This document shows positions 13,801 to 61,731 of a stretch of 64,000 nt of DNA, one piece after another (the stretch's first letter is position 1; each line of letters begins with the position of its first letter). A model generated the notes under the pieces. It ran no database searches. It was not told where the DNA came from and saw only the letters and a list, made by a program, of their open reading frames with translations. The position numbers were made by a program, and so were the translations under genes. Origin of the DNA: Hydractinia symbiolongicarpus (Eukaryota > Cnidaria > Hydrozoa > Anthoathecata > Hydractiniidae); assembly GCF_029227915.1 (NCBI RefSeq), contig NC_079878.1, positions 22,223,501 through 22,287,500 on the forward strand. Reading direction: 5' to 3'.

Positions 13801-14864
13801 GTACTGGATATGAAAAAAATAAACTAAAGAAAAGAAAGAAATTGGAAAGTTTTTGTTTAACTGAAATAGACTGCAAAAAAATTTTCAGCACGTAAGATAA
13901 ATTGAGGCAGTTAATAAAATATGGCTTATAAATGACTAAAAAAGCAAAAAATCGATTATAAATTTGGATTATGCCATATTATTAGTATAACAGACTAGTC
14001 CATTTAACGATAACCTTTAAATGCTGTAAGACGATCGTAACAGTTGCATTGTGTTGGAAAGAAAGTTTTGGATGCACTGCACATGATATGACATTGCTGT
14101 TGACCACATAACCATCTGTGAAAATGACGTGTCTATAATGATAATTGTTAGGATCTGTTACAACATGACTCGATAGATTATACACGTTAAGAAAATGTCT
14201 TATACCTTTATCGTGAGCTATGAGTCACGGACAAAAAATGGCACAATAAATTTTTAAGCTAACAATCTTTGTACACCTTAAAAACACACGCACAACAATA
14301 ATTGTGTCTGACATGCCCAGGAAGGATGAATCAGGAGAATTTTAATGGAAAACATTTTGATAGATCAAATTAGATTAAAATCCGAATTTCTTAATTAAAA
14401 TTTAAAAATATTACTGCATGTTACCTTTTTCTATTCCATCTGTGAGGCAAAAAATGACCCAACGTTTTAAAAGACATTCTCGCGACCAGTGTAACTTCAC
14501 CTAAAAATTTTTAGTAATTTGAATTAAAGAAGTAACATCTCTTGTACAATGTGGACCATTTCGCACAATTAGAACCTAATCTGTAAATCGTCAAATGCTT
14601 GAACACCTCAAATAGGTTTAGTCAGGCTGCACATATACACTCCTTCATCTGCCACCTTAAATCCCTATTTTGAAATGGTAGATTATAAATTATTTTTATT
14701 ATATTCTTGTCTATGTGTTCTGTACTTACCGGGCTTAAAAACATTGCGAGGCAAAGTAATTGAATCTTTTCTTGCAGTCCATTCATTCATAAGAGGTACC
14801 GTATTGGTAGGAAAGGTATAGTTTCTTCCATTCAGTTCTGGTTTGATTTTTGAGACAGCGAGTA
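10857..14864 (-). pseudogene. Partial 3' duplicate of the receptor gene (exons 12-20)
   Basis: The exons are 14730-14864, 14425-14500, 14015-14132, 13631-13680, 13361-13487, 13036-13142, 12877-12905, 12410-12612 and 10857-12179. Each matches its partner in the full gene in length, phase and splice sites; the last exon is one codon longer. All frames are open, covering the end of GAIN, the GPS, the TM and the tail. Exons 1-11 are absent: upstream, past about 16620, the sequence turns into inverted repeat-element DNA. There is no signal peptide, so it is probably a truncated copy. It could still be transcribed from another promoter or act as a donor for gene conversion. 'Pseudogene' here means truncated, not disabled by stops. 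Confidence 0.8.
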
Positions 14865-26520: not shown

Positions 26521-26589
26521 ATAATAAAAATCTAGTGGTCTAGTTAACTAACCTTTCTTTCAGATATCAAATTAATTTTTTCTCCCACC

Positions 26590-31785: not shown

Positions 31786-32002
31786 GTTATTATGTACAAA
31801 ACAGTGAGTAAAGAAAACTAATTCAGGAATGATGTATCACGAATTGTTAAAATAATAAATGATTGCAGTTTTTAAAAGTGCAAGATGTGTGAATTTTTAT
31901 TTAATTTTAATGTGCTGTAAATTTGTGTGTATAATGTGCATTGTATCTTGTTCATATGCTTACTTACTGGTAAAGCTGTGAGAAGTTTATGTATGTATTT
32001 TT

Positions 32003-32070
32003 GCCCTGTTGGTCTAATAGCTATGGCACTCATGTAAATGAGAGATCTGGGTTCGAATCCTGGACAGGGA
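32003..32070 (+). repeat. tRNA-like sequence, right copy, unit 1
   Basis: Identical layout to 9080-9147, with the B box as the consensus GGTTCGAATCC. Confidence 0.5.
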
Positions 32071-34571: not shown

Positions 34572-34777
34572 GTTGCTATGTACAAAACAGTGTGTAAGAA
34601 AACTAATTCAGGAATGATGATCACGAATTGTTAAAAAAATAATAGATGATTACAGTTTTTAAAAGTGCAAGATGTGTGAATTTTTTTAATTTTAATGTGC
34701 TGTAAATTTGTGAGCATAATGTGTATTGTATCTTGTTCATACTGGTAAAGCTGTGAAAAGTTTATATATGTATTTTT

Positions 34778-34825
34778 GCCCTGTTGGTCTAATAGCTATG
34801 GCACTCATGTAAATGAGGACAGGGA
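34778..34825 (+). repeat. tRNA-like sequence, truncated, right copy, unit 2
   Basis: Same sequence with 20 nt covering the T arm and B box deleted; clearly a dead copy. Confidence 0.5.
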
Positions 34826-36416: not shown

Positions 36417-36422
36417 TTATTT
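36417..36422 (-). terminator. Candidate polyadenylation signal of the receptor gene
   Basis: AATAAA on the minus strand, about 115 nt after the stop codon of exon 20. The same hexamer sits at 10737-10742 behind the left duplicate. Position and motif fit a poly(A) signal, but in such AT-rich DNA the hexamer is common. Confidence 0.4.
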
Positions 36423-36536
36423 AATAAGCTTACCGAGAGAAATAATTATTTTTGTTTTATAAATTATATATATATAAAATTTTTTAAAAAGCAATATGAT
36501 ACAATCGTCAAGTACATAAAATCTTTAAAAATCGTG

Positions 36537-38289
36537 TCACCGAGAGCTTTTTGTCCCTACAATAGCCTTGTTTAATTTTAAGACGTTTAAGAATTCTTCT
36601 TTCGTATTTGGCCTGTTAGCTATTTTCTGTGGCGATGGTATAGATGGGTTTTTCAATTTGCTCTCACTACCCTCTCGACTGCCCATTTTTCGTTTAAACG
36701 TCACGCTTTTATAAATTTTAGGCTTTCTGGTGGTGCTTCTATAAGTCAGTTGGATATCATTTCGTCTTGATTGCTGACGCAGGGCTATGTAACTTCTCAT
36801 ATGGGCTGTTTGTGTACGAAAGTTGTGTCCGACGTTCGTTGTCGCTTTGACGTCCTTTTGTCGGATTGTTTGACTATTTGACGTGGTTTTATTTAAACCT
36901 TCAAACGACAGCTCCTTCGAGGCACGGTTAATTTTATGCAATTGTTTTTCCATAGTCATATATTTATGGACCGTCGATTCGACAACGTTTTTGATTGGTT
37001 GCGTATAGTCAATATCTTTCCACAGTGACCAATCATTTCTAAACGTTGGAATTGGTGCTGTTGTTGACGTTATAACTGTTAGTGTAGACGGTGGAGATAT
37101 CGACGTCGTATGCAGTGTGGATTTCAAGGTTGTAATCGATTTTATTGTCGGTTTTACAAACGGCGTTAATAACACAGTCTGTTCTTTCTGAAGGTCTTTT
37201 CGCCTTGAATTATTTTGTTCAGTCAGCACAACCATTCGAGAAAATCGGACGTATTTACGTACAAGAAAGTTTTCCTTTAATAGAATATATAATTTTGAAA
37301 TAAAACAGTAGTGAATTCTTGAGAAAGTACTCAAGTCAACGCCAATAAACGTTTGTACGCTAGAAAATGTTATATGCTTTTCATTTACATTCTCGTGCTC
37401 TAATGAAATGTCTTGGCAAGCGCTGTTTGGTAAAACATCCTTTGTTTTCACTAAATCAAATAATGTTGTCTTGCAACCATCTTCGTATACATTTACTGCA
37501 ATACTACCCATTTCACATGCCTCCAATTCTATGTTCTCTCCCTCTCTCCTTAATTCTTCTACGTTTTCTGTTGTTATCTCTTCTTCTTCTTCTTTTACCT
37601 TTTTTTTATTTTCCATGTATTCACCATTCTTTAGAGTATCCTCACTGCATGTCGATTCAGTTTCATCATTTAGACTTTTCGATTCGGTCAACGTTGCATT
37701 TGGTTCAAATGAGATTTGAAAATACTTGGTGACTTCGTGCAAGGTAAAAATACTCGTATACGGCATATCATCTATTGCAACACAAAAAGAGGTATCCAAG
37801 AGTTTACTGCCAACATTCAACGCTGGCTCCGTACTTTCATTCTTATTCATTGTTTCCTAAAAACAGTTATATGCACGTACAGCTTCTTAATATGACCGCA
37901 ATGAAAGAGTAAAACGAAAGATGCTTATTTGAAACAATGAGCAGTGGTGGCAAGCGATAGAACAGAGAAGAAACACAATGGTAGCAAATAATTTATCTAA
38001 TATCTTTATATAAACTTGAACGGTCAGAACTGTCATAATTATAATTTCCAATATGTGAACTTATACTTTTTTTCGTAAATCCTTACTTTTGGCCTTCTCT
38101 TGTCTTTGCAATCATGACTCTCACAGTCAGTAAGAACATCCCAAGCATGCTCCCACTCGAGCTCAGAAGGGCTTGGAGTGCAATTCGCCGCATACAAGTA
38201 TCTGTTTGGCGAACCAGGATATTTTTCCGATATTGTTTGCGTGACAACCACTTCTTTATCAGGAAACGTTGGTCTTTTGTCCATTATTA
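36537..38289 (-). CDS. Receptor exons 19-20: long cytoplasmic tail
   Basis: Exon 19 is 38087-38289 (donor AAAA|gtaagg) and exon 20 is 36537-37856 (acceptor gtttttag), joined in phase 0. The tail is about 510 residues, polar, with an acidic Glu-rich patch ([18 protein letters not shown]), Ser/Thr-rich segments and a basic C-terminal third. I recognise no kinase, phosphatase, ITAM-like repeat or other signalling domain. No further strong transmembrane helix is evident; a segment near [14 protein letters not shown] is only mildly hydrophobic and carries charges. Confidence 0.8.
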
Positions 38290-41200
38290 CTAAATTGAAT
38301 TATACATATTCCTCAAAAGTTTGCAATAGCATGGACAGGTGAAAACAATTCTGTATACTTCAAAAGAAAGGAGTTTCGCGTACGACCAATATTTTTTAAG
38401 TGGAAAGACGAATATTACATTGTGATATGTATGGCGTATGGCGTTTTTTCTTTCTTAAAACAATCGTGCGCACAAGTATTTCAAAAAAATTCTTTAAAAC
38501 AGAGCATCAATTGCGCGTGGAAATCATCCGATGTGTAAAATAACGTTTTACGCACCTACATGTCTTCTTCGAGGATTTTTTGTCCTATGAACAACGAATA
38601 TAAATATTAAAGTAATAGATACACTAATTTGGTTTTGAAGAAATCAACGAAGAGAAAAAGTTACGTTGAAATTTATATATTTATTCGAAGAATTTTAAAG
38701 TTATTAACACTAACCAAGCGAAGCAGACATATAAAGATCCAAGTAGAAGAATGACAGCCACTGGTATACCAAGCCATGCTGCAACGACTACATTTTCCCT
38801 TTTCTGTTCCTTTTCAGATATCTATAAAATAGTTTACGTTGCGTTACACACTGAGAAAGGAGTACAGAGAAATCATAGATCATAATAAACAAGACTGGAA
38901 TTGTGCGTATATAGTTAACCAATCCTATCTCTTTTTCTAAGTGTTTACATGTGGTGACCTGATTCTAGACTGCCCTGGATAATAAAATGATGCTGGTATG
39001 TGAAAAAAATCTCGTATTAGCGAAGATTTTTATCTACCTTTTGATCGTTAATGTTACTAAGAACTGCAAAGTGAGTTAGATGTGAGCATTTGCACACTGT
39101 TGTCGTTTTGTTGGTGAAATCTACCCAACACCCTTCAGTAGACCAGCTTCCTCCGGTATTATCCCTAGTGACAAAAAGAAGTAAATTAAAGTGTGTTCAT
39201 ATTTTAAGCAAAAAAAACGCTTTAAAAAATGCTTAATGCAGGCTAAGGTCCTTTGCCTTGTACCTTAGGCTTTTTGACACAACCTATTAAATATTACCTG
39301 TCATTGACATCCCAAAAAACACACTTTGATTCAGCAGGATTTGATTCCTATATCAAAAAAGACATTCTGTCATGTTGATGTTTAAAATGTTTTTTGGCGA
39401 TTGAAGGTATACTAGTTGCTTGGTCTATCAAAACATCCAAATTTAAGAATAAAAAAAGCTAAATGGTTAGTACTGGATATGAAAAAAATAAACTAAAGAA
39501 AAGAAAGAAATTGGAAAGTTTTTGTTTAACTGAAATAGACTGCAAAAAAATTTTCAGCACGTAAGATAAATTGAGGCAGTTAATAAAATATGGCTTATAA
39601 ATGACTAAAAAAGCAAAAAATCTATTATAAATTTGGCTTATGCCATATTATTAGTATAACAGACTAGTCCATTTAACGATAACCTTTAAATGCTGTAAGA
39701 CGATCGTAACAGTTGCATTGTGTTGGAAAGAAAGTTTTGGATGCACTGCACATGATATGACATTGCTGTTGACCACATAACCATCTGTAAAAATGACGTG
39801 TCTATAATGATAATTGTTAGGATCTGTTACAACATGACTCGATAGATTATACACGTTAAGAAAATGTCTTATACCTTTATCGTGAGCTATGAGTCACGGA
39901 CAAAAAATGGCGCAATAAATTTTTAAGCTAACAATTTTTGTACACCTTAAAAACACACGCACAACAATAATTGTGTCTGACATGCCCAGGAAGGATGAAT
40001 CAGGAGAATTTTAATGGAAAACATTTTGATAGATCAAATTAGATTAAAATCCGAATTTCTTAATTAAAATTTAAAACTATTACTGCATGTTACCTTTTTC
40101 TATTCCATCTGTGAGGCAAAAAATGACCCAACGTTTTAAAAGACATACTCGCGACCAGTGTAACTTCACCTAAAAATTTTTAGTAATTTGAATTAAAGAA
40201 GATCTCTTGTACAATGTGGACCATTTCGCACAATTAGAACCTAATCTGTAAATCGTCAAATGCTTGAACACCTCAAAAAGGTTTAGTCAGGCTGCACATA
40301 TACACTCCTTCATCTGCCACCTTAAATCCCTATTTTGAAATGGTAGATTATAAATTATTTTTATTATATTCTTGTCTATGTGTTCTGTACCTACCGGGCT
40401 TAAAAACATTGCGAGGCAAAGTAATTGAATCTTTTCTTGCAGTCCATTCATTCATAAGAGGTACCATATTGGTAGGAAAGGTATAGTTTCTTCCATTCAG
40501 TTCTGGTTTGATTTTTGAGACAGCGAGTACTAAAATGAAAACAAATGTATATGTGGCACAACATTTCTTAAATTTACTGTTTAAATTTACGATCAGATTT
40601 CATCAAATAAAATTTCCAATCCATTATGGCCACAAGTTTTTTTATCACGAGGCAAAACAATAGGTTGACAAAAATCACACATTCCCCGTAGCTATGTATG
40701 GATGCCTGGATAGTGCTAGTTGAAAGATACTATGGTTAAAAGCCTGAACATCAAACAGCGACCCACGCATCATTGTAAACTGGTACCTCCATTAATTATA
40801 CGAAACGAGAAAATAGCTTCCAACATAAGGATGCGTCGTGGTACTGAAACTGGCAATTTAGCAGCTATCCATTACAAATTAAAACTAGCTGTGATGATCC
40901 CTGCGATACAGTGGCTTACGGACCGTCTACTTCTAATCAGGTATCAACGCTCCTTTATGCTTGTGTAGCTTGTTATGTAAAAACCAAAAAAAATCCTCAC
41001 AAATGCGTCTCTGTTTAAACAGCGGTATTTATAGATTGAATGTTGGTGGAGGGAGCTTCCCGATAGGCTGGAAAGTTTTTTGTAAAACTGGCTTAAATGC
41101 ATTGAAATACTTTGATACATTACGACTCTACATGTGAAAAAAACCGGTAAAACATTTCTTTTCGCGAACACAAAAGATGTAGGTAGTCCTGTGAACAAAA

Positions 41201-44200: not shown

Positions 44201-47200
44201 CGAATTTGACAAGTCTGAGCATGCCGAAAGCATACGATTTTTACATGATACACGATCCGATTAATCGAATTCGATTAATCGGATCGTGTATCACTGGCTT
44301 AAAGCTAACTAATTTTTGAAGCGAATTAAAGCGAATTATTAAAGCGAATTGCCTTTTTTGTATTTGTGTGAAAAAATTTAGTGTGATTTTTCACTTAAAT
44401 CCGCAGTGATATGTTCCGCACTTTCTGTGCCATCATTTGTCATTTAACAGACGAGGTAATTCGTGGCACACCACACTGTTGACGTAGGAAATTTCTACAA
44501 CTTACCATTGATAAGACCAAGCAATTAGCAATTAAACATGCCGTGCAAATACCTTTGACAAATATTTCTTAAGAAAAGAAGCTATTTTCTTTTTCTTAAT
44601 TTTTTTTGTCTGGTAAAAAACTTTATCTATTGACTAAGAAGCACCAAATTTAGACAAAAACTAAATTATCTAGAAATAAATTAAAAAATTGCAATGTTCC
44701 ATAATGCTGAAGAAAACTTTCGTCAGGGAAAAAGCAATACTAACACATTGGTGATGACAGAATCAAAGAATTTTTTTTTAAAAAAAATTCCTTTCTATTC
44801 CTACGTTAAAATCTCTGATTACTGCAGATATATGACAACAAGAATTATTTTGAGTTATAAATATAAATATATTTGGTCTTGTACGTTTCTCTGAATAAGT
44901 AAACTTCCCGTCGATTTTAAGTAGTTCTCCTTTGCCTGTTTTGCTACCGAAACCGACTTTTCTACATTGTAAATGTTGCTTCGCCCCCTTCTCCCCCTCA
45001 CTCCTTTCAAATACCCACCCCACCCATTTTATTCCACCTCTTTTCAACAATAATTTAGGCAACACGACATAGAGGGAAACACGATGTAAAACAAACATGT
45101 TAATACAAGACAATATATAATACAAAAATATACTTACAAATACTTCTCGTGATGACAGGTTTCATGTTCATTGGCCTGGGTAGCTGACCTGCAGCGCGCA
45201 AACCAATCGTGTCAAGAGAAATCATCAGCTTTGTTGGATCTATTGGGTTCTGAAAGAGGATTCTCAAGCTGTTATAATTTAGTTATCAGCTACAATAAGA
45301 TACTCATATCAAAAGTCTTTACAAACAAAAGTATTAGGTTTATTGGAAATGAATTATCTCTTGTCTATTCCAGAGTCGTAATATCTTTCAACTATACACT
45401 TTAAATAAAAATACATTTGGCCTATTTGTTTTAAGGCAAAGATTAAAGTTGTTTTTGCGAATTTTTAGGGTTTCAGATGTTAGCTCGGTAATAGGTTAGG
45501 TAATGTCGAAAATTAAGCCAAATCATTTTTAATTGCACAATATTGTAAACTTCATTGGGTTATTAACTTCTTAAAATTAAGAAAATCTCTTTTTTTTTAA
45601 AATTTATAAATCGTGGTATTAAATTGTTGAACGCTAAAAGCTACGAATATATGTTATTGTTCAAATTCAACATGAAGCAGGGATTAATTGCTATGTCATG
45701 TTATCAGTTAGATAGAATTTCTATTTTTTTTCAAGAAAAAAATGAAACTGGATTTATCAAGAAAAAACATTAGACATCTAAATGTATTTACCGCTTTTGA
45801 CGTGGCCCCCAGATTCTTCCATTCATCTTTATTTGTTTCGTCCAGAAGATTGCTTACAGACCGTGTGATACTCTAAAAAACAATAATAATCATAAGTTTT
45901 GAATTAGTATCCTTGAGAACGAATTAAAATCAGGCGTTAATGTTTGTACGTTGTATAAAAAACCATAAACCGTATATAAAAGTGTTTCAATACACAGTTA
46001 ACTCCCGGTAACTTCAACACCACATATCTCGAGCTTTCATTATCTCGAACCATTTTCTTGGGTCCCTTGAACTTTCCTTAATACTTTCTTATAAAAAACT
46101 CCGGTTAACTCAAACCTCAAAACACTAGAACATTCGTTAACCCGACCCATTTTTCGTCCCACCTGTGGCTAATTTCTGCGGATAACTCGAACTTTTCACT
46201 CGAGAAAAGGAAATGAAATTTTTGTTTAGCTATTAACTACTGATGTAATATAGATAGATATTGTTGTCTGTCATAAAAAAAAAATTAATTTACGTGGGAC
46301 TTGCATGCCTTTTCATCGACAAGATTGCAACTTTTCCCGGTAACTGTTGCCCCACCTCATTTTAAAAAAATCGCTTCAACTCGAACTATAATCTCGTTTA
46401 ACTCGAACATTCGTTAAGTCGAACTATTTCCCTTGATCCCATGGAGGTTCGAGTTATAGGGAGTTAACTGTACGTTATACACAAAATATAGGGTTGTAAC
46501 GAGAGGAACAGGTTAAAACAACAATGCAAATCAAGTAGGTTTTTAACTCTGCATCTAAATGTTTTTACTTCAGATTACTCAAAAAACAGGGTTTGGAGAA
46601 AATACTGCATGCTATGGAGAGGAGACGTACTCGCATGTCATCATGGTTTAACTTTTCGCTGGTTGTTTGATTGACGTATTTACTGATTGAATAAATAGCT
46701 TGCACAGCCTTTAATAAATCTCCACCAAATATCAACGAATTGTCAATGGTTTGAGTTGTGACGTCATCCAATTCCTGCAGCAGTGATCTTACGTTAATGC
46801 CACGGCCGAGCTGTTTTACCTAGAAAGAAAATTTGCGTTGTTTTTTGACGTGTAAGGTGTTTCAAATCTGTTCTAAGCAATTCCCATGAAGGGGAAAATG
46901 TTTAATCAAATATGTTCCTTACTTATCAGCATCACGTTGAAGAGAATCATGGAGAGTCTTGGTATTAGCATTTCTCACGAGCAGAAAGGTTGGTTAAAAT
47001 TAAAATCCATTTTTATTGACTTTGAATTGAAGCAAATATCACATTTGTATCCGCAAGGACATAGAGAGATTAGTGGTAAGATAAAAAAAAATGCGGAAAA
47101 ATATGGACAAGGGGTGAGAAGGGTAAAAATTTGACAAAATTGTGTGGACTTCTTTTATGGATAACCCCACACAAACATTGGATATTTTCAGTTTAATTTT

Positions 47201-50200
47201 TAGTTAAATTTATAATATAAAAAAGAGATTTTGTAATCATATTCTTTGTATATACCTCATATTTTAAAAGTTTGATAAGTGTTTATCAAATAAGTCAATG
47301 AGGTGACTCTTATTATTACTAACCTTTTAAAACAAACTTGAGATTTCCTTATTTTCTATTTTTTAGCGTTGAAAAAACTTTTGCATCCTGAAAAGTATCC
47401 ATGACTCGGTGTAAACACACCTTTGCGTTTTGCTGATTTATAATTTCTAAAGGCATAATCTTTTGCAAAAATGCCTAATGTAATAGATCATTTAGAGAGT
47501 AGAATAATATTATATATTCCGTGCTAGTGACTTTCCAAGGTATTAGTAACACAATAAAGTGTTATACCAGCGCCCCTTTAATAGCCATTCACCAGAAAGT
47601 CCATGCAGCCTTTGCGGTCGCTTTCATGTAGGCTCTTACTTTCATGCCCCAGCGATGATGACGGTTTAAAAAATAAACACGTCAGTAATGGGTGAAGTGA
47701 CAAGCCGTGAAGTTGAAGCAAAAAACGATATGACACAATTGACAGTCTAGTTACCTTGTCAAACATTCTCGAATAATCATGAGATATGCATCCACTGAAA
47801 TCAGGTTGTTCCCAGTCTCCTTGTTGGTTACAAAGTCTCTTTGCTTTACCTAAATTTAAAAGTAAATAATTTTGTAAAAGTTAATGCAGAGGGCAAAATT
47901 TTAATCTAACCAGGCGTGCACAACCAGGTTCAGATTGTTGATATACACTGTGGTGGAAAGTTAAACTTTACTTTGTCAAGTTGTCTTTATAATCTCTCAC
48001 CTAAAGCAGCCCGCGGACAATCTCTCAGAGCAACAGTACCAGCAAGTGTTTTCTGCCACGGAATGCCAGTGGCAAGTTGTTTCTTGCAATACAACTCTTG
48101 AGTGACATTAGATCTACCATATCTTGATTTAAAAAACATCAGTCTTGTACTCTTCTTACTGGCAACCAATGTTTCGCAAATTGTTTTGTTTTGACATTGC
48201 ACTAAATGGCAGACCTAAAAGAAATAAGGGGAAAACTTTAAAGCATCGATTTTACAGAAACATTTACAGAAAATTTGGTGTTGTTAAGATGTAATAATTA
48301 TTATGACTTCCTTCATACAACCTACGAGATATATTTTTGTCATCAACCAAAAAGGCATCTCAATTTATGTATTTTATAACACAGATCCAGCTCTGATTCT
48401 CTCAAAGATTTGACTGATTAGGTTAGTTAGGTTTGTTTCGTTGGATTATCTTTGCTTATGTGGACGCAATTCCGAAAATGTTTTACCTTTCTATATGCAT
48501 ACAGCATAAGTTTAAAATAAAATATCTATATTTTAATGCTCGCGTCTGTCTGCCTGCCCCGGACGATTTCCCGTGGATTCTTTTTTTAAAGCCAAAAACA
48601 ATGCCTGTTCCGGAAACAGGAAAAACCTTTAAATGACCAGCTGACATCATTTGACAATTGGAAGAAGAAAAAGTGGAATCATGCGCATATTTTATTTAAG
48701 ATTGTAGCTAGCCCATTCCTATGTAACTCTACCTCTAATCTTATCAATCTTTTTGCTTTGATAGAAGAGTTTTGGATAACTACTACAAACTTTCCTTTTG
48801 ACTAAGAAATCGTGAAGTTAATTTTTTAGCTATGCTAAAGGTGAATTCACATGGGCATAAAGGTGTAAATGCATATTCCTTTCCAAAATTGTATGAAAAG
48901 ACAAATGAATTAATATAAGAAGAAAATAAAAAAGGTAAGAAGCTTTAAATGTTTTTGTGCATAAAAAGATATAACAGTGCATATTGTCTTTCGAGACATT
49001 TTGACAGGCTGCTGTAGCACTAAAGAAGTCTGCTGACTAAAGCTAAACAGGTTTTCTTGATTCATTTCGAACAAGCCACTATATGCCTACACTTTTAAAT
49101 CTACCTAAATGTTCACTTTTCTCCTGACAGAAGACCTTGTACTTTCAAAATCGCCTTCAGCACATTGACAGACCCACATGACTAAAGCCTCTCCAGAATT
49201 TAATCGTTTTTATAGCTGGCCAGAACGGACTGATCAACGCTTGTATTTTTACATTATACTTACAGTAAAGTTTCTGGTGGGACTAATTATCGTTTTAATA
49301 TATTTGTTACACCATGTCATTAGTCAATAACACATACCCCATCCTCCAACGCAGCAACGGCGCAATTCTTGATATGACAACATTCCTTGGCACACTCGTG
49401 AAAGTCTACCTTGGGTATTTTAGAAAGCGTGTCGATTTTATCGTATTTGAAAATCTTGTTATGGACATCGGCTGTTAATACACAATCTGAAAAAAATAAA
49501 AAATAATATTCACTTTATTTAAACGAAATGGTTTTAGAAAGAAAATTGGTGAAGTGATAGGAAAAATATTATTCGCCCCTTTTCCAGTAAGATCAGTGTT
49601 AGCATATCGACACAGTCTAATTATTTTACAGTGTGATCATTTATACCAGTCCAGATATATAACAATCTGCGCTTTTGTTACCATAAAGACGATTGTGTTT
49701 GCGACACAAAAAAAATATTTTTTTAAAATCAATGAAACGTTTTTTCAAAAAGAAGAACAATTTTTTTTAAAAAACTCAAGTGTGTTTTGGATCTTGCGTT
49801 TCTCAAAAGTTTTTGAATTTCATTATTAATAGTCATTTTACCACAAATACCCCTGCTTTTTTACCGACCGAAATGCACGCGCATTTAAAAACCTGCAAAC
49901 TTTTGTAAACATTGGAAAGTCATCTATAAAAAAATATCAGCATTCTTTTTGTAAAATATGATTTAACACGTTTGACTCGCTTTCCCAAGATCTCTCTATT
50001 GCGAAGGTAAGTCAGTCTTGGCATGATCGCCTTGATTCTACCAGGAACTCGGTTAGACAAGATGTGTAGGGTATTAGCGTATGTTTTTACCTTTAGGTAA
50101 TTCAAGTGCACTTTGTTTTTCTTTATCTTCTTTTTCGTGTTTGTGAATCTCATGAGGGACGATTGTTTTAAGAGTTTTATTCTCAACTGAAAAATAATAA

Positions 50201-53200
50201 GATGATACTTGCGTCTGATCAGGAAATATAAAGCCTTACTGTTCCTACTAGGCTTTTTGGGCGCCTTTAACCAGGAAGGAAAGGGGGAGGTGCAGATTGT
50301 GTCCCCAGATTGTAGTTTCCGATCCAGATATGTGAAACTTTGCTTGTCTATAGTTCTTTTATATACCTACAATTTGACATACAGTAATCTCATTAAATAA
50401 TCACGGCTTAATTTTTGACCACAGTAAATGTCATTTCAGTAATCTCAATCTAGCCATGTATAATTAATACACATACTTTAATCCCACTACCACCTGTCAT
50501 GGGTTTAGTCCCAGGACCAAAAATAATCCCATATGAAAAACAAAAATTAGGAAAGGAAAAAAACAAATTGATTTAATTAATTAAAGGACTGAGGGTGACA
50601 CAATGCCCCCCACCTAGTACAACATCATACACAACATTAAGAAGCATAGCAAAAAATAAAGCTAAAACTTACCTGGTTCATCATTTATGTCAACATTGTC
50701 AAAGAATTTTTTTAAGTCGTCTTGTTCTCTTTTTGGAACAGGCGTTGTTGACTTCTGATGAAACTGTTCAATTGTGTTAGAAGAGCCAGCAGTGTTATTG
50801 TCATTTTCATGGAAGAAATCATCAAAAACTTTCTTGTGCAGTTTTGTAGGTTTTAGCCCATGTATTGGTTCTGTTTCTTTCGGCATTATTTTGTTAGGTT
50901 TTACGTTAATAGCTACTTTTGGAAGATTGTGACGTTGCGATGTATTTGTTCTGTTTATCGGTGGATTCATAGTGCTTTGTTTTTGAAGTTTCTTTGTATC
51001 CATGAAATTCTTTGTTTTTTCAATAGGTGCGATTTTCTTCATTGAATTGTCAAGATCGTCCAAAAGTTTGTTTGTGGTTTGTTTGATCCTCTGTGGTGTA
51101 GTTGGAAGGTTATTTTTAACTTCTCCAACGCGTTCGCCAATGTTGTTTTTAAGTTCATGTAGGTTGTTTTCTGGTTTGTTTATTGCTTTCTGTTGATGAA
51201 TCACAGGCTGTTCCTTTAGCAACGCGTCGCCAATATTTAATTTGTGAATATCGACATTCTGGACACCCTCAGGTACGCTTGTCAACCTCTCTATATTGTG
51301 TGCAACCATAGGGAGACGATTTGGGAGAATTCCACCTGTATTAATTTCATGTTGATTTTTTTTCTCGTTTAACAATTGATTTTCAAATTGAGCATGATTC
51401 TTCTTTTGTGCAACAGCATCAACATCTACTTTCCTTATGTTCGTTTTATCATTTATATTTTTTATATTTTTTATATTTGCAGGAGACACAGGAGTGTTGA
51501 TATTCAGTTGATGTGCAACTAATTTTGGATGAATATTTTGCTGCGCAATGTGATTCATTCTTGCACCAGGAATTATAATTGGGCTTAACGTATTTGTTGT
51601 TTTGACAGGAATCTGATTATGAATTGTGTGATTGCCATGCAAGAGTAAACTAGATCCAGTTAATGCATTCAAATGCTTGCTCAAGTCATGCGGTTCTTTT
51701 TTAATCAACATACTTGCCTGAGGTTTTTCATTTATTTTCAATACACCATTTTTATTTGCAGTTTCTGGTATTCTAATGATAGTATCTTTCTTTGGTTGAT
51801 GTATTTCTATTGGAGATAGATTCTCAATATTTGGTTTCGCTCCATTGTTTAAATCTTTTAAAGGTTTGTTGACTACTGTTTTTTTTTTCAAACTTTCTGA
51901 TGCAGTTTTATTCTGTGGTATCTTTGGCGGTACCTTTAGTATCACAACAGACTTTACTGAAGGTTTCTGCACATTTGCAGTTGGTTTTGCAATATTTACA
52001 TTAGGTTTTTGCATAACCTGTGTATTCTTTATCGCTTTCGCCGGTTTTTTCTGTGTTGGAGGAGCCAATGTAGTAGTCTTTTGTGGCAGAACTTTCTTCT
52101 TCCTTCCATTTGGTGTTGGCGTTATTTCATTTAACCTATTTTTACCTGTTGCTATCCCCATTGGTTTTTTGTTAACTGCCCGATTATTAATTTGTTGAAT
52201 GCTCGCCTGTTTTTTGGAATTTGAAATAACTTTTGCAGTAGGTTTGTGGACTGCAGCTATTTTATGTTTCTTATTATTAGCAGCAATGTTTGTATCTTCA
52301 TCACCAATTGCAATATTTAATGTGGGAATTTTCTTTTTATTGTCAACCTTGTTTTTGTTAATGTTGTTACTCTTGTTGTTGAGATTGTTGTTGGTGTTAC
52401 TGTTGCCATTGTTAATGTTCTTTTTGTTGTTGTTGTTGTTGTTTATCTTATTCTGCATTTTATTTGTTTTATTAACATGTTTGTTCACATTTAGCATATT
52501 TAAAGTTGCTTTATGATGAAGGTCATGAGAGGATATAGTAGAACTTGATTTCGACGTTGTTTTAGTAGACTTTGTCGATGGATGGTTCTGAACTTTATGA
52601 TTAGTAGGTTTATTGGTAGGTTTATGGTTGACAGAATGATTTAGTTTTTCTGGGTGTTTTTTCGTTAGCACAGTAGTATTAAGTACGTGTGATTTTATCT
52701 CAGATACGTTTGTTTTCAGTTTCTTATTATTAGTTCGTTTTGTATCAATTTCTATCTTTATTTGATTTCTTGTTGGCTCGATATACCTGGAGATATTTTT
52801 CACACTATGTCCTTTTGTATTAGAACGTTGCTGTACAATTGGAACAACTCTTTCCTTGTGAGCAGTTCTGTTCACATGTTTTAGTGTTGTGATGTTCTTG
52901 TTCTTGACGGATGCATTTACGCGAACTGTGTGTTTGTTTTTTGATTTCTCTTCAGTATATTTTGATTTTGTTTGATTTAAGTTATTGCTCATAGTAGAAT
53001 TTTTGTTTTGCAAAACAACATTCTGTTTTCCTTTTGTCGTTGTGTTAGATATACTTACCTTTTCAGAGGAAGCGTTACCTGCAGTATCTGGCAGTGCTGA
53101 ATTTGATTCAAAAAGCTTTTTAAATTTTTTGAATTCTTCCAGTAAGTTTTCCTCATTTCTATCCTTGTTAGAAAGTTTTGAATGTTCAAGATAATTTGTA

Positions 53201-56200
53201 GCAATGCTTGTAAAGTTTTTCTTGTCTAATGGAGTAGATGATGGAAGATGCTTTACAGGAAAACTATCATCCTCTTTATCAGGAATTATTTGATTCTTTT
53301 GAGTTCGTCCAATTTTCTTCATTTTAGATTTGGAATCTCGACTTGAATTACCATTAATTTGCTTTGTTATTTTATTCCGTTTTTCATTTTTCTGCAATCT
53401 TTTGTGGGATTTAGAAGTTTTTATCACTTTAACAGGTGTTTGGGGAACCTTTTTTATTTTTTCATACATTCCTTCGCCTGATTCGGTGTCATCTATATTT
53501 TCCGCACTTCCTGAACCAGAACTTTCAAACGTATTCGTTTTAGTTTTATTCAATTGAGTCTCAGTTTCAATGTACCCACTACCAGAACCAGAACTTTCAA
53601 ATTCCTCAACTTTTTTTCCAATCTTTCTCTTCTTTTTCTTTTTCTTCTTCTTCTTCTTCATCTCCTCTTTTTTATTCTTCTTTTTCCCTTTCTTCTTTAA
53701 TTTTTTTTTATTTTTATGATGAGATTTTTTGCCTTTTGATTGTCCAACTTTGGATTCTAATTTTTGTTCCAAGCTCTCAATTCGTTTCAGCAAAATGTCT
53801 TCCGTAGGCTTTTTTGTGGTTTTTGACGACGAATGAGCAGTTGTCGATGCGTTTGGCGAATGCTGATTAGTTGTCATGGCAACAGATGAGGTTGTTGTTG
53901 TTGTTGAAGAACTGGTCACCGTCGTAGTAGTAGTCGAAGTTGTTGTGGTGGTAGGAGCAACAGTGGAGGTAGACGTTGTTGTACTAGGCATAGTTGTAGA
54001 ACTAGAACTAGCTCTTGAGGTGGTGGTTGTAGTTGGCTGATAAGGAGATGTAACCATAGGTTTATCAAAACCTATTGCTTCAGGAGACAACTTTTCTTGT
54101 TCTTCCCGAGATGTATCTTCGCCTTCCGTATCAAGGTATACTTTTGTTCTTTTTGTAGCTTGATCCGAGAAGAGGGTCATACTCTCCTCATCCAGGTTGT
54201 TGCTGTCAAACTTGTGTTTATGCTTATGGTGCTTCCTTAAATGCTTACCTACAGGTGTATTATACGACATTACATTGGTCGGATGCAAGGGAACGGATTC
54301 CTTAACTTTTCCCATTTTTTCATCATCTAACTGAGAAATGCCAGAATTTATCTGATGCAGTAACTGATAATTTGGAAAAAATTCATGATTTTTGGGCTTT
54401 TTTAGTCTTTGCTCATTTTGCTTTTCCTCTTCTTTTTCGTCATCAGCATCATCATGATCATCATCATTATCACCATTTTCTTTTGTCTCATAATCGTGGG
54501 ATTGTTCGAGATTCTTGTGTTTTTGATGTTTTCTGTGCTTGGTTTTCTTGTGTAGGGACTCTAAAATAAAACAGAGTTGAAGAAAAAAGGGTATCTAATG
54601 GAAAGGAATCACCAGAAACGATAGATCCAAAAAACGACAGGAATAAAAGAGATTTGTTGCCTCGCTTAACCCTAACCCTTTAATAAAGTATTACACCACT
54701 AGAGGTTTCTTAGATGCGTCGTACGAAAATTAAATAAACCAAGTGTTGTTTTCTGAAAAAATTTTCATGGAATTTCTGTGCGAATCAAGTCTTCAGACAA
54801 CGAGCTTTCTCATCAGTTTTTCTCTTTCTTTCCTCTTGTTTGCGAGTAAACAAGCAAAGAAGAGAATAGAAACATCTGTCTTATCCACATCTAAAGGTTT
54901 TTGGTTTATAAGAGTTCATTGGAAATCAGCGTTGAGCCAGATAAACTTTGTGCACTTGCTTACTAACTTAAACAAAACAAACATTACCTTTCAACTTCAG
55001 TGCAACAGCAATACTTGAATGCGGTAGCTTATCTCGTACCGAATGACAATTTTCACCGAGCGAGCACATCACACCATAACATGAATTTTTAATCGTGAAT
55101 GCTAAAACACATTCATCAGTCCCACAGCATTGATCACTGCACGCCAGCAGGTTGCTTTTGTGAGGAAGTTTAATAAATTTAAAACCTTTTTTTCGACTGG
55201 GGATAAACGATTTTTTAAAATCAGCTGCACATGTAGGATTTTCTTCATCATCTTCAGAGGCATCGCTGTCATCTTCTTCTAGAGACCTTTTATTGTGCTG
55301 GGATAAAAGTGATGATGTGGTACTGCCTACACAGAGAAACATATTCACCATTTCCAATACTCGATGTTATTTTTAAGGCTTATCTTTGAATTGCTTTAAG
55401 AAAACCTTGATGTAAATATTACTTTGATTTAGTTCATAGCTATTTATTGCGTTACTAGGTCATTTGGAATAGAAGTTGCGCGACACTGTAGTTGTTTTAT
55501 TTTCGTAATTTAAAGTACTGGTCGATGGGCTCAATCCAAGCCGGGTTAACAGGGACGCTGTTTTAAACTTATGCTGAGTTCTTCCGGTGACAACAACAAA
55601 AATGGGCACTTAGCATTAGGATAGAATTGTTGTCTTAAAGAAGATCTCTAATGACCGCAATAGTTGCCAACGAAAGCTGTTTAGGGGTAAAAGAAATATC
55701 AATTGCAAACAAAATTGTAAGAAAGGCTACCTATAGGAATTGCATGTGAAAATGTCGATCTTCTGTCCACTCTATGTCCTTCGAAGTCACCCAGTTGTTT
55801 AGTGATGGTTGCACAAAGTTTGGGATGTTTACAATGTACACCAAAACATTGTTTCTTCGAGAAAATAGACACGTGACAGTTGCGTTTACCACAGCAAAGA
55901 CGATGACAATGATCCTTGTCGTGAGAATGCCCAAACATGATCAAACTGAAAGCACTTTTAGCTTGCTGTTCACACAATCCATCGAGATTTGCAGTTACTA
56001 AAATGAAATGCAATTACTAAAATGGAATGCAATTACTAAAATGGAATGCAATTACTAAAATGGAATGCAATTACTAAAATGGAATGCAATTACTAAAATG
56101 GAATGCAATTACTAAAATGGAATGCAATTACTTAAATGGATTGCAGTTACTGAAATAGATTGCAGATACTGAAATGGATTGCAGATACTGAAATGGATTG

Positions 56201-59200: not shown

Positions 59201-61731
59201 TTTTATCTAGTTCTCTTTATATTGTGGGACTGGAGATGCTTTGTTCTATCATTGGATCATTTTAGGAGATGGTTATTGGATGAGTATGTATGTTTATTTT
59301 TTCTATGTCCCATCTATCTATTATTTTGTGAAAGCTATTAGCTATGGAAAAATTGCAATGTTGTCACTTTTTCAAAACGCGTCAGAATTACTCACGCATA
59401 TATTTACAGGAAAATCAGAGGAATCCTGATATCTTAAATTGACCGTAAATGAAGTAACAGGATTTCTCACACGGCACCTCTAAATCGTACTGTGAGGGAT
59501 CCTGATTTTTGTCTGAAGTTCAACCAGAAGAAAAAAAAAAAAGGAATGAATTTTTATTGTGATTTTTAGCCATGTGTAATGTTTTTTTATCACATGTGTG
59601 GCTATAAAAATAGCCATTGTGGCAGATTTTATAGTTCATGCCTGGAACTAGATGAATCAGTGACCCATGTCTGCTGCTACTGGCTTTTTTAATTTCAGTT
59701 CTCAATGATCTTTTCTTTGCAAGTTTTTTAGCAGCCTTATGTTTTTCACGTATGTCTCTAGCATAGGAAAAGCTGCAAACTCTTGTAAACATAGTAAGCA
59801 TGTGTTCCAGAAGATTCATACTGACTTCTTTACTGACTTGTGGATCAATGGTTTAACAGACACTTTTGAAATTGGAAAGTACAGAACAGTTTTTGAGCAT
59901 ATTTTTAACAAGGTCTTGACAATTTAGTGTTGTGCTGAAATTTGAAGTTTTCAACCGAAACATTTTTTCACATTCTCGAAAAAGTTCTTGTATTTGTTTG
60001 TTCACTCTCCACAAGCCACCACGGTCGCGTATATTGATCAATGTCTGTGAATCATCACAGTCAACTTTGCATGCTTGTAGGATTGATACAGCCTGTTTGT
60101 TGAATTCACTTTGTTAAGACTTTTTCGAAAAACGGAATTTTGTATAAAGCTTGTGAACAATAAATCCAGCCACATATTGCAGGCTTTTTTGTTCATTCTC
60201 CGAGATAGGTGTTACAGCTTCAGTTACAGAATCGACAACTTTATCATTACCCGAAAGATGAATTAAAACATGATTTGCAAGTTCTGTTAGAATAATATTG
60301 CTCAAAGTAGTGTCCTCAAATTTTGATGGAAGCAAGTTATCTTTCAATAGACCATAAAAGTTTGCATAAAAATCTTCTGCATCACCGTTATACTTTCCAA
60401 TGATTGGCTTCAGTTTTTCCCAAAGTTTGACCGCATCATCATTAGAAACTTTGAAATCACGAAACACTTCCCTGGTTGATTTGGGTAAACATTGATCACC
60501 AAGGCATATCTCAGCACTCTTCGTGATAAGTACTTTCAACTTCAAAGGGTGTAGCTTTTTCAAAATTTGTTCTTCTTTAGTAAGTTTTGGTAATGAAGGA
60601 CCAGCATTCGTCGATATTTCAGGAGTAACTTCAGTAGTGTGTTTGACATTGCGATGTCTAGTCAGGCCACGTTGTGATTTACAAATTTTATCACAATCCT
60701 GACAAGGATACCCAACTTCTTCGTAAGCTTCCACTTCCGTTATCACAGCATCTAATTCCAAGTAAAATCCACATCTTCATCAAGAAAACCGCCTTCAAGT
60801 AACTCAAATAAATCATCAAGATCTTCGCCTGCAAGGTAGTCTCCTCCTGCATGCGCCGCCATTTTGAACTTCTGTGCAGGATGAGCGGGCCGTCCCAGGC
60901 TGATTGAGGATAGTTCGCGTAAACAATGCCGACGGTCCACGCAACTAGACTATCTTTTTTTCTTGTGACTATGAAATAACTGATACATAATCCAACAAAT
61001 CGAAGTTCAGGTTCTCGACTGAGTTTTATAATAAAGAAGTGCCAAAGTAAATAATTCGAGATAAGAAAAGTTCAAGTTCACTGTTTGTGTTGACTGAAAG
61101 TCAACCGTATATGCTTTTTATTAAGCACTGCGAGACCGAAATTTTTTTTAAAAAATGAAGCATTGAATAGAAAACCAAACAAAAAAATTGCAAAGCTGCA
61201 TCACGAAAATTGCCTGAAGGGAATAAAACTACAGGCACACATTAAAGGGTTTCTCAGGCTCTTCCTCCGCTATTTTAGTCAGAGAATTAAAATCTAGGGT
61301 AAACACTTTTTTCTCTGTATTGACGCAATGGTATTCTTTAAGTTATGCATTGAATAGTTTAGATAAGCAAGGCGTATGAAAACAGTTTCAGAAAAAAACC
61401 CAATAAAGAAGGCATGGGAAGTTGTTATGTTGCTTTTTAAAGGAGGTTTATTCCATGTATATTTAGATGCATCAAGAAGCATTTCAATCTTTGTACACAT
61501 GCATAGCCCACCTGAGTATACTGACACGGGGCACGCGTGCGACTTAACGTGCAGCTAAACGTGCAATTAGTTGGGAGAATCGGAAATCACGCGACATGGT
61601 GAAAAAAAACGTAACAACTAGGAGCGTTCAATAAATTGAATTTATAAACAACAACAATCAAACTTACCGTATAGAAAGTTCGCAACAGATAAAACAAACC
61701 ATGGTATTATAAATATTCTAATTCCAACCAT
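36537..61731 (-). CDS. Single-pass MANSC-HRM-GAIN/GPS receptor-like protein, 20 exons, 2552 aa
   Basis: Coding exons, 5' to 3': 61668-61731, 55731-55997, 54988-55326, 50673-54560, 50091-50186, 49338-49486, 48001-48214, 47755-47849, 46631-46819, 45792-45872, 45138-45249, 40395-40529, 40094-40169, 39684-39801, 39298-39347, 39038-39164, 38715-38821, 38556-38584, 38087-38289, 36537-37856. All introns are GT-AG, all phases match, and the total of 7659 nt is a multiple of 3 with one terminal stop. Approximate layout in residues: signal 1-21, MANSC1 25-85, MANSC2 130-205, stalk 224-1551, MANSC3 1551-1630, HRM 1645-1700, GAIN 1704-1945, GPS 1950-1992, TM 2010-2035, cytoplasmic tail to 2552. In known families GAIN/GPS undergoes self-cleavage at HL/T and usually precedes a 7TM domain; here only one helix follows. 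I infer a type I cell-surface adhesion or signalling receptor. No transcript evidence was available, so missed micro-exons or alternative splicing are possible. Confidence 0.85.
38556..38821 (-). CDS. Receptor exons 17-18: single transmembrane helix and stop-transfer
   Basis: Exon 17 (38715-38821) encodes a charged linker, then about 25 hydrophobic residues ([20 protein letters not shown] and onward to FAW). It ends at the donor TTG|gttagt. Exon 18 (38556-38584, 29 nt) is a micro-exon with acceptor gttcatag and donor TAG|gtgcgt. It adds TKNPRRRHV, a basic cluster suited to the cytoplasmic face. The micro-exon is the only join I found that carries frame from exon 17 into exon 19. Reading through intron 17 instead adds ten residues and a stop that overlaps AATAAA. 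Confidence 0.75.
38680..38685 (-). terminator. Candidate intronic poly(A) signal in receptor intron 17
   Basis: AATAAA overlaps the stop codon reached when exon 17 is read through its donor. Use of it would give a tail-less, membrane-anchored isoform. The motif is kept in the left copy at 13001-13006. No downstream element was verified. Confidence 0.25.
39038..39347 (-). CDS. Receptor exons 15-16: GPS autoproteolysis motif
   Basis: Exon 15 (39298-39347) gives [10 protein letters not shown]. Exon 16 (39038-39164) continues with [13 protein letters not shown] and [13 protein letters not shown]. All landmarks of a GPS are present: CVFWD, W, GCW, the C-x-C pair and the H-L/T cleavage tripeptide. 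Self-cleavage after Leu is therefore chemically possible, giving an N-terminal fragment of about 1985 residues held to a short tethered stalk. The short Ser/Thr-containing segment after the cut and before the membrane resembles a tethered agonist, but there is no 7TM domain for it to act on. Confidence 0.92.
39684..46819 (-). CDS. Receptor exons 9-14: GAIN domain
   Basis: The exons are 46631-46819, 45792-45872, 45138-45249, 40395-40529, 40094-40169 and 39684-39801. Subdomain A is helical with the familiar [14 protein letters not shown] and [14 protein letters not shown] segments. Subdomain B shows [42 protein letters not shown] and [12 protein letters not shown], each in its expected place. 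Intron 9 holds a pogo-like MITE. Intron 11 (40530-45137) holds a broken small gene and a TIR element. Only exons 12-14 have duplicates in the left copy. GAIN is the autoproteolytic fold of adhesion GPCRs and polycystin-1. Confidence 0.85.
41619..41895 (+). pseudogene. Small broken gene, right copy
   Basis: This is the counterpart of the left-copy gene, inside receptor intron 11 and on the opposite strand. The start [20 protein letters not shown] is intact, but an insertion after FLEA brings an early stop. The body of exon 2 is missing. The last exon end keeps the correct frame ([20 protein letters not shown] then a stop). The two copies are thus damaged differently, so the block held a working or less damaged gene when it was duplicated. 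Confidence 0.4.
43018..43775. repeat. 129-bp tandem repeat, about six units
   Basis: Units start at GGCCAAAATTGGTCC near 43023, 43132, 43261, 43391, 43519 and 43648. Each contains AAAGTATGCTGAAC and a run of TTTTGATTTTT. Units differ by point changes. Confidence 0.9.
44246..44293. repeat. 48-bp perfect palindrome
   Basis: Reads the same on both strands, centred on CGAATTCG, with arms TGATACACGATCCGATTAAT. It is the right end of the intron 11 TIR element. Confidence 0.9.
44304..45137. other. Intron 11, unannotated part
   Basis: No gene or element ends seen; short open frames have no recognisable domain. Confidence 0.4.
45995..46470. mobile_element. pogo/Tigger-like MITE in receptor intron 9
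   Basis: Ends CAGTTAACTCCC and GGGAGTTAACTG with internal repeats of a TAACTCGAAC type, as in pogo-family terminal repeats. 476 bp, no coding sequence. The right flank is TA; the left flank is altered. Confidence 0.6.
47755..47849 (-). CDS. Receptor exon 8: end of HRM domain
   Basis: A 95-nt exon, phase 1 in and 0 out. It continues the HRM with [20 protein letters not shown] followed by C, matching the family's G-x-x-x-R-x-C, G-x-W and final Cys. In adhesion GPCRs an HRM directly N-terminal to GAIN is common, which supports the exon order. Confidence 0.82.
48001..49486 (-). CDS. Receptor exons 6-7: third MANSC domain and start of HRM
   Basis: Exon 6 is 49338-49486 and exon 7 is 48001-48214, joined in phase 0. 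Together they give a third MANSC domain: DCVLTAD, then [19 protein letters not shown] and TICETL supply the cysteines. Exon 7 then begins a hormone-receptor motif: YCKK, the GIPWQKT turn and DCPRAALG, matching the W-x-x-T and CP positions of HRM modules seen in adhesion and secretin-class GPCRs. The donor is G|gtgaga. Confidence 0.82.
50091..50186 (-). CDS. Receptor exon 5: short Lys/Glu-rich linker
   Basis: A 96-nt phase 1-1 exon between the acceptor ttatttttcag and the donor AAAG|gtaaaa. It encodes a charged linker ([19 protein letters not shown] and onward) with no recognisable domain. It is called from its splice sites and because it keeps the frame between exon 4 and the third MANSC domain. 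Confidence 0.65.
50673..54560 (-). CDS. Receptor exon 4: 1295-codon mucin/proteoglycan-like stalk
   Basis: One uninterrupted 3888-bp exon, acceptor ttattttag and donor G|gtaagt. It opens with His/Lys-rich and Asp-rich runs, followed by a Thr/Ser tract at about residues 395-465 that looks mucin-like. A lysine-rich block (about 495-540) comes next, then acidic-flanked ESSGSGSG and ESSGSGSAE motifs typical of glycosaminoglycan attachment sites. The remainder is a long Asn/Lys-rich region with a polyasparagine stretch encoded by a trinucleotide run near 52370-52445. No globular domain or cysteine cluster is visible. I infer an extended, glycosylated, highly basic spacer that holds the N-terminal MANSC pair far from the membrane. 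Confidence 0.85.
54988..55326 (-). CDS. Receptor exon 3: acidic linker and second MANSC domain
   Basis: The exon starts after the acceptor tgtgtag. It encodes a Ser/Thr stretch, an acidic run ([14 protein letters not shown]), and then a second MANSC domain with TCAADF, CSDQCC, DEC, CYGVMC and ENCHSV as its cysteine positions. The donor is G|gtaatg, phase 1. The two N-terminal MANSC domains have similar Cys spacing and were probably duplicated within the gene. Confidence 0.85.
55731..55997 (-). CDS. Receptor exon 2: first MANSC domain
   Basis: This exon of 89 codons carries the MANSC cysteine pattern: an early Cys (LCEQ), then CHRLCC, a Cys five residues later, CFGVHC, and a last Cys before ATITK. 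MANSC domains are extracellular disulphide modules known from HAI-1, LRP11 and KIAA0319. The donor G|gtagcc gives a phase-1 junction to exon 3. The 3' splice site (ATTTTAG|TAAC) is continuous with a 19-bp minisatellite in the upstream intron whose units repeat that junction; see findings. Confidence 0.85.
55998..56290. repeat. 19-bp minisatellite abutting the exon 2 splice acceptor
   Basis: About 15 tandem units of AATGCAATTACTAAAATGG and close variants. On the minus strand every unit contains TTTTAG|TA or TTTCAG|TA followed by TTGCA or CTGCA, the same sequence as the exon 2 acceptor with which the array is continuous. Confidence 0.9.
56291..58143. other. Intron 1, unannotated part
   Basis: No exon found on the minus strand. 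Contains a direct repeat (CCAACTTTTTAACGATATG at about 56513 and 56691) and a (CAAA)n run. Confidence 0.4.
56800..56851. repeat. (CAAA)n microsatellite
   Basis: About 12-13 tandem CAAA units. Confidence 0.9.
58346..59130 (+). pseudogene. P-element (THAP) transposase, internally deleted
   Basis: The N-terminus is a THAP zinc-finger domain: [17 protein letters not shown], then [19 protein letters not shown]. Near 58525 the frame shifts directly into the transposase C-terminus ([52 protein letters not shown]). A TAG follows, and the last part ([17 protein letters not shown] and PIAGNVQG) continues in frame. The RNase H-like core with the catalytic residues is missing, so it cannot be active. 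THAP9 and Drosophila P transposases are the nearest known relatives. Confidence 0.85.
59154..59615. repeat. Inverted hairpin pair inside the P element
   Basis: GGCTATTTTTATAGCCACAC at 59154-59174 faces its reverse complement at 59595-59615, a 21-bp perfect match. Each arm is itself a hairpin. It may be a nested MITE between the two convergent genes. Confidence 0.45.
59630..60862 (-). pseudogene. P-element second ORF with C2H2 zinc finger, broken
   Basis: Starts [20 protein letters not shown], frameshifts near 60760, then reads [20 protein letters not shown] (a C2H2 finger) and [21 protein letters not shown] at 60114 and another at about 59853 interrupt one continuous frame that goes on with [38 protein letters not shown] and [13 protein letters not shown]. 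It is convergent to the transposase and inside the same terminal repeats. Its function is unknown to me. Confidence 0.7.
60981..61667. other. Intron 1, 5' part
   Basis: No supported exon or element between the P element and exon 1. Confidence 0.4.
61668..61731 (-). CDS. Receptor exon 1: start codon and signal peptide
   Basis: An ATG opens 21 codons that are almost wholly hydrophobic ([20 protein letters not shown] then Y). They end at a consensus donor, G|gtaagt. The one leftover base completes the first codon of exon 2 with no frame conflict. A short hydrophobic N-terminus with a basic residue near the start is what a secretory signal looks like. The 5.7-kb intron that follows holds a P element and a minisatellite. 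The link across that intron rests on phase and on the need for a signal peptide, so it is a little less certain than the other junctions. Confidence 0.7.

Follow-up and report, generated by a model that had tools for sequence, protein, structure and literature searches.

A predicted self-cleaving single-pass receptor combining MANSC domains with an HRM-GAIN-GPS module in Hydractinia symbiolongicarpus

Gene organization at the locus

The window described here, i.e., the whole stretch of 64,000 nucleotides that was analysed, derives from the hydrozoan Hydractinia symbiolongicarpus (C4:22223501-22287500) and contains on its minus strand a gene of 20 exons at 36537-61731 (C4:22260037-22285231), hereafter referred to as gene A. 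Its spliced model possesses 19 introns, of which 19/19 are of the GT-AG type with consistent phases (introns 1-5 being of phase 1 throughout), and encodes 2,535 residues with a single stop at the end. The protein comprises a signal peptide, three MANSC domains and a stalk of 1,328 residues, which are followed by an HRM domain, a GAIN domain, a GPS with the site HL^T, one helix and a tail of about 515 residues (Table 1). A preliminary description of this DNA had likewise arrived at 20 phase-matched exons, a number that stands, and at a length of 2552 residues; the latter would fit an exon 11 that is 51 nt longer and ends at 45138 rather than at 45189. The alignment with P0005, a 7TM adhesion GPCR from a coral, was made with the shorter form of exon 11, which it fits with a gap of two residues. 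An additional GAIN exon, which the latrophilin sequence had led one to suspect between exons 10 and 12, was dropped as a candidate, since P0005 aligns through exon 11 with this small gap; the alignments with P0003 and P0006 revealed more gaps than that with P0005 around exons 10-12.

Table 1. Exons of gene A and its 3' copy (window positions, minus strand)
Feature	Position	Content	Basis
Exon 1	61668..61731 (-)	Start codon, signal peptide	Hydrophobic N-terminus, GT donor, phase 1; picked by hand
Exon 2	55731..55997 (-)	MANSC1 (KIAA0319_N)	E 5.3e-7, unspliced
Exon 3	54988..55326 (-)	MANSC2 (KIAA0319_N)	E 1.4e-7, unspliced
Exon 4	50673..54560 (-)	Stalk	3,888 nt open frame, Thr/Lys/Asn-rich, SGSG motifs; no Pfam family
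Exon 5	50091..50186 (-)	Stalk end	Gene model
Exon 6	49338..49486 (-)	First part of MANSC3	E 2.1e-7 joined with exon 7; alone no KIAA0319_N match
Exon 7	48001..48214 (-)	MANSC3 end, HRM start	Both matches on unspliced exon
Exon 8	47755..47849 (-)	HRM end	HRM E 1e-10 on joined exons
Exon 9	46631..46819 (-)	GAIN subdomain A	GAIN E 1.5e-9 on joined exons, spanning profile positions 2-74 of 210 only
Exon 10	45792..45872 (-)	GAIN subdomain A	Joined-exon Pfam match, P0005 alignment
Exon 11	45189..45249 (-)	GAIN helix	Aligns with P0005
Exon 12	40395..40529 (-)	GAIN subdomain B	Gene model, P0005 alignment, P0001 identity of copy
Exon 13	40094..40169 (-)	GAIN subdomain B	Gene model, P0001
Exon 14	39684..39801 (-)	GAIN subdomain B	Gene model, P0001
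Exon 15	39298..39347 (-)	GPS first part (CVFW), 50 nt	Gene model, P0001; equal length at second locus
Exon 16	39038..39164 (-)	GPS with CKCSHLT, predicted cut HL^T	E 5.2e-13, unspliced
Exon 17	38715..38821 (-)	Single membrane helix	Gene model, AlphaFold of P0001, hydropathy, P0001
Exon 18	38556..38584 (-)	Basic segment past helix	Gene model, P0001
Exon 19	38087..38289 (-)	Proximal tail, kept in P0002	Gene model, P0001
Exon 20	36537..37856 (-)	Remaining tail, stop	Gene model, P0001
Tandem 3' copy (NCBI LOC130641855)	10857..14864 (-)	Exons 12-20 only	Repeat comparison, P0001 identity

The join of exons 1-5 to exons 6-20 is a prediction, and in particular the links between exons 1 and 2 and between exons 5 and 6 were deduced from the splice phase and from the equal domain order at a second locus; exons 1-5 are without annotation support, and a search of public proteins with the N-terminal part yielded 0 matches. 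Automatic exon chaining is weak support for the model, as its codon table was trained on gene A's own exons: it placed the start of the gene within ORFs of transposons or at another ATG codon, took the modelled exon 2 at the lowest penalty only and never chose the modelled exons 13, 14 and 17, which were read by hand and with all three of which P0001 agrees. Intron 1 is 5.7 kb in length and contains transposon-like ORFs, namely a TNP-like GBD ORF (58509-58970, plus strand, E 3.2e-5) and a C2H2/P-element-like ORF (60117-60776, minus strand, matches below the cut-offs). Exons of the condensin gene Cnd3 (L017:5766-6738, minus strand; E 1e-11 and 0.0011), located upstream of gene A at a distance of about 8 kb from exon 1, set a bound for its 5' end.

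The tandem copy of the 3' part lies in a duplicated segment (8700-15656 repeats 34429-41322 at 97.2%). Its exons, when read from an internal Met, equal letter for letter P0001, the 697-residue NCBI protein of LOC130641855 from H. symbiolongicarpus, which means that the NCBI model uses the same nine exons. As compared to gene A, 2150/2165 exon bases and 1800/1824 aligned intron bases are identical, all splice sites are kept and a single in-frame 3-base indel within the exons results in one inserted codon; 14 codons differ, 9 of them non-synonymously and 5 synonymously, which says little on constraint. The copy may be a real duplicate or an assembly error, and P0001, which starts inside the GAIN domain and lacks a signal peptide, probably reflects either a duplicate that lacks the head or a gene model with a wrong start. 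As the annotated protein found covers this headless copy only, the receptor may have been overlooked. Further nested near-identical repeats were observed within 1-41322 (1282-7814 equals 24231-30781 at 96.7%; 7845-10054 equals 30776-32968 at 95.8%), and an integrase core domain (rva_4, E 7.7e-8) is found between the two copies at 20748-21323 on the plus strand.

A more distant relative, P0002, is encoded by a metagenomic contig of 2,936 bases and is identical to gene A at 106/157 positions (67%) over the GPS, the helix and the proximal tail. A distal tail motif of 13 residues is also present in P0002; it includes YIAL, which we take to fit a YxxPhi endocytosis signal.

Domain composition of gene A

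The preliminary description had proposed the order MANSC x3, proteoglycan stalk, HRM, GAIN, GPS and one TM for the protein and had called for profile searches, all of which (MANSC, HRM, GAIN/GPS) returned matches with Pfam; together with hydropathy and the recurrence at a second locus these bear out the architecture. KIAA0319_N, a family of the MANSC type, was found in exon 2 alone, in exon 3 alone and in exons 6 and 7 when joined, and joined exons gave matches to HRM, to GAIN and to GPS (E 7.4e-16). Exon 7 was identified to carry the fusion point of MANSC and HRM: when left unspliced (48002-48214), it matches HRM positions 2-30 with E 2.1e-4, a value below the family's cut-off, and, weakly on its own (E 0.29), KIAA0319_N positions 55-83. 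As this single exon encodes both the final third of MANSC and the N-terminal half of HRM, the fusion is independent of predicted splicing.

The stalk (exons 4-5) is free of cysteine (0 residues), consists of Lys and Arg to 18% and contains 24 N-x-S/T sites as well as SGSG beside acidic residues. The latter presumably resembles glycosaminoglycan attachment sites, so that the term proteoglycan holds at the level of motifs only. From HRM to GPS, gene A is 27% identical to P0005 (E 3.8e-34), and the closest solved structures to this part are those of BAI3 (E 2.1e-25) and latrophilin-3 (E 6.7e-21). The C, W, G and H-L positions of the GPS are invariant across 7 aligned proteins. Among the gene A sequences scanned, which included exon 4 while exon 5 and the whole protein lay outside the scan, no match to PKD repeats was obtained, and neither were Kunitz or LDL-receptor modules matched in the sequences scanned; REJ, PLAT and 11 helices were not found in gene A, for which a single helix is predicted instead.

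One predicted helix in place of a 7TM domain

Hydropathy analysis of gene A revealed two segments over the threshold, of which the first belongs to the signal peptide and the second to a helix near residues 1991-2022. Following the GPS, one hydrophobic peak each was counted in gene A, P0001 and P0002 as compared to 7, 4, 7, 6 and 7 peaks in five adhesion GPCR controls, whose values document that the rule can undercount. The helix lies 23-24 residues past the Thr of the cleavage site in gene A and P0002, and TM1 of the adhesion GPCR controls 22-34 residues past it. In the AlphaFold model of P0001, which was built with 7 sequences and is poor (mean pLDDT 40.7), the strands of the GPS can be seen together with one helix at 147-182, most of which has a pLDDT of 68-87, and the tail is mostly disordered.

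The Pfam scan of the joined exons of gene A, P0001 and P0002 yielded no match to 7tm_2. A 7TM exon set that is hidden downstream of gene A or joined to its GPS, a case that the preliminary description had itself raised against its model, was looked for on C4 and not found: 0 of the 91 listed 7tm_2 matches of the genome-wide profile search locate to this contig. Just downstream of the stop, both copies have a short hydrophobic ORF without Pfam family (35971-36138 and 10294-10461, minus strand).

A second locus and the genome-wide survey

The order of three MANSC domains, HRM, GPS and one helix recurs, in diverged form, on the minus strand at C4:21.46-21.47 Mb, 0.8 Mb from gene A, which supports the architecture of the latter. 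Here the three MANSC domains reside in one exon (E 5.2e-34) and are 21-35% identical to those of gene A; they are followed by an HRM domain (E 7.2e-6, just over the cut-off), a low-complexity exon of about 1,000 residues, a GPS (E 3.2e-11) containing CECTHLTTFGVL, a Thr-rich linker and a single hydrophobic helix, 134 residues past the Thr of the GPS. The peak count of 1 at this locus covers the sequence up to a point just past the helix. The GAIN part was recognised by eye and with the aid of weak tblastn matches (e.g., E 9.1), the pieces scanned with Pfam gave no GAIN match, and no convincing signal-peptide exon was found as first exon. The exon encoding the first half of the GPS has 50 bases and the same phases in both genes. 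Downstream of this locus, an exon of a Rho-like small GTPase was recognised by eye (L013:3561-4010, minus strand).

The genome-wide profile search (481 Mb) identified at least 40 GPS places and at least 55 KIAA0319_N places, and among those listed, the window and C4:21.46-21.47 Mb are the only two regions in which GPS and KIAA0319_N lie no more than 100 kb apart. For 28 of the 40 listed GPS places, 7tm_2 is found on the same strand up to 15 kb downstream, and the other 12 consist of the three single-pass places on C4 and nine elsewhere. Pfam scans of ten strings from seven of these nine loci detected 7tm_2 in L021, L022, L023 and L027 and no 7tm_2 in the strings scanned from L024, L026 and L028; L025 and L029, by eye near-identical to L024 and L028, lay outside the scan. 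The 40 listed places thus comprise 32 with 7TM support, three of the single-pass kind and five (L024, L025, L026, L028, L029) with several hydrophobic segments by eye. The corresponding HRM search returned one place, at neither MANSC-GAIN gene, because introns split their HRM domains.

Clusters of KIAA0319_N were observed at C6:25265522-25300979 (L011, L012), at 8.95, 20.72 and 23.80 Mb of C6 and at 27.24 Mb of C3, and as some of the clustered matches belong to open frames with lengths of 3,478 and 3,686 residues, they suggest giant MANSC-repeat proteins. Two pairs of GPS loci on C1 (8158525 and 10417035, 2.3 Mb apart; 12354524 and 15940365, 3.6 Mb apart) have equal scores and near-identical surroundings within each pair and may represent segmental duplication or unmerged haplotypes.

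Searches for public relatives, covering proteins of about 510-1,630, 850-2,690 and 1,390-4,440 residues with shared short words, yielded 4, 4 and 0 hits and thereby 7 distinct proteins, none of which is listed with a MANSC domain. In the literature on MANSC/KIAA0319 with GAIN/GPS and on LOC130641855, no such protein was recognised in the accessible parts of the reports (including PMC12716839, PMC6134521, PMC4302439 and PMC11014542), and likewise no MANSC-GAIN protein was recognised in the literature on single-pass GAIN proteins and on adhesion GPCRs in cnidarians and Hydractinia.

Interpretation and alternative explanations

The sequence itself shows the domains, a GPS that is intact, a single hydrophobic helix where 7TM relatives have TM1, a tail that is kept in a further species and a second locus with equal domain order. 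Gene A is best explained as encoding a single-pass receptor with three MANSC domains and a long stalk ahead of HRM-GAIN-GPS, predicted to cleave itself and thus to possess a releasable head, a reading to which a probability of roughly 55% is assigned. That it represents a hydrozoan family of dedicated single-pass, self-cleaving, MANSC-headed and long-stalked GAIN receptors, which would act as stand-alone force-releasable clasps, uncoupled from GPCR signalling and wired to the conserved tail, is judged an even bet. Both the MANSC combination and the existence of genes devoted solely to a single-pass form seem to be new, and a receptor kind comprising two genes in Hydractinia is apparently undescribed. 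The 3' duplication, the second locus and the published single-pass precedent of Cirl were not part of the preliminary description, whose overall interpretation stands as regards the architecture.

The main rival is the idea of a dedicated single-pass subunit, which would use its ectodomain to pair with a 7TM adhesion GPCR and tune the force response of that GPCR, as Cirl 1TM is reported to do. According to PMC13197933, Drosophila Cirl forms without the 7TM domain act together with the 7TM form, and the 7TM and 1TM forms appear to make heterodimers and to signal through G-alpha-o; the 28 listed GPS places followed by 7tm_2 would moreover offer many partners. However, the long conserved tail of gene A would be needless for a passive subunit, and such a role is considered rather unlikely, though to be taken seriously.

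Less probable still is that the model fuses two adjoining genes, i.e., one for a secreted protein of MANSC1-2 and stalk (exons 1-5) and one for a MANSC3-HRM-GAIN-GPS single-pass receptor (exons 6-20). The link between exons 5 and 6 is backed by phase and splice scores only and the N-terminus has no public protein match, both as expected for such a fusion, but exon 6 has by eye neither start nor signal peptide, introns 1-5 share one phase and the second locus likewise has three MANSC domains ahead of HRM. That gene A is a decaying adhesion GPCR gene, or that its 7TM exons escaped detection, would be in line with the duplication of the 3' half within a repeat-rich stretch and with the 9 non-synonymous and 5 synonymous codon differences, by which little constraint is visible between the copies. 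We regard this as very improbable, given 0 stops or frameshifts over 2,535 codons, the GPS, helix and tail kept in P0002, the NCBI protein of the 3' copy likewise ending after one helix and tail, and the lack of listed 7tm_2 matches on C4.

Proposed mechanism

For the single-pass receptor, self-cleavage at HL^T is predicted from the intact site, the invariant GPS residues and published single-helix constructs, and, as expected from these papers, it would occur during biogenesis. The head would then stay on the cell by non-covalent contacts only, resulting in a two-part protein, and the MANSC domains at the end of the long stalk may bind a partner. Pull or ligand would separate the halves and release the head, whereupon the tail may signal or become internalised; both shedding and a role in adhesion are assumed here. 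Lacking a 7TM domain, the Stachel-like strand would most simply serve the fold, and the cleavable clasp would serve adhesion or tail signalling rather than activate a 7TM domain of the same protein.

In most accounts, GAIN cleavage serves to expose a tethered agonist to the 7TM domain next to it. Genes that retain an intact GPS on a single helix would allow self-cleavage to be studied apart from this agonism, whether it acts as a clasp, as a shedding switch or within a subunit, and Hydractinia is amenable to laboratory study.

Comparison with known systems

The HRM-GAIN-7TM adhesion GPCRs (BAI/ADGRB, latrophilin/ADGRL, coral P0005) share with gene A the HRM, the GAIN, the GPS with HL^T and the distance to the first helix, whereas gene A lacks TM2-7 and possesses MANSC heads and a large separate tail; its likely origin would be such a receptor minus TM2-7 plus MANSC heads. 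Having a GAIN domain with GPS and no 7tm_2 after it, gene A is by the 7TM test not an adhesion GPCR (class B2) in the strict sense and may resemble one in the cleavage step. The KIAA0319 family has the N-terminal MANSC of the KIAA0319_N type and the single pass in common with gene A, but is defined by PKD repeats, which were not found in the gene A sequences scanned, where HRM-GAIN-GPS is present. The Polycystin-1 family documents GAIN/GPS outside adhesion GPCRs, as in gene A, but has PLAT and 11 membrane helices after the GPS; these and REJ were not found in gene A, which has HRM. MANSC proteins of the HAI-1/LRP11 type have Kunitz or LDL-receptor modules beside MANSC, and such modules were not found in the sequences scanned from gene A.

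By prediction, gene A has GAIN/GPS followed by one helix, as single-pass GAIN proteins of the Cirl 1TM kind do. The Drosophila Cirl 1TM isoform is a GAIN receptor with one membrane pass like gene A, but is a splice form of a 7TM gene, whereas gene A bears MANSC heads in addition and its contig yielded no 7TM part. The constructs EMR2-1TM and EMR2-calnexin-TM (PMC12488864) likewise have GAIN on a single helix and are described as cleaved, but are engineered. There, EMR2 truncated after TM1 was reported to give the N-terminal fragment and to reach the surface, its cleavage not being quantifiable, and the calnexin helix was found to support cleavage while the soluble form was cleaved much less; closeness to the membrane was reported to matter. 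Gene A may be seen as resembling a natural form of EMR2-1TM, to which the second locus, where 134 residues separate the helix from the Thr, is a poorer fit.
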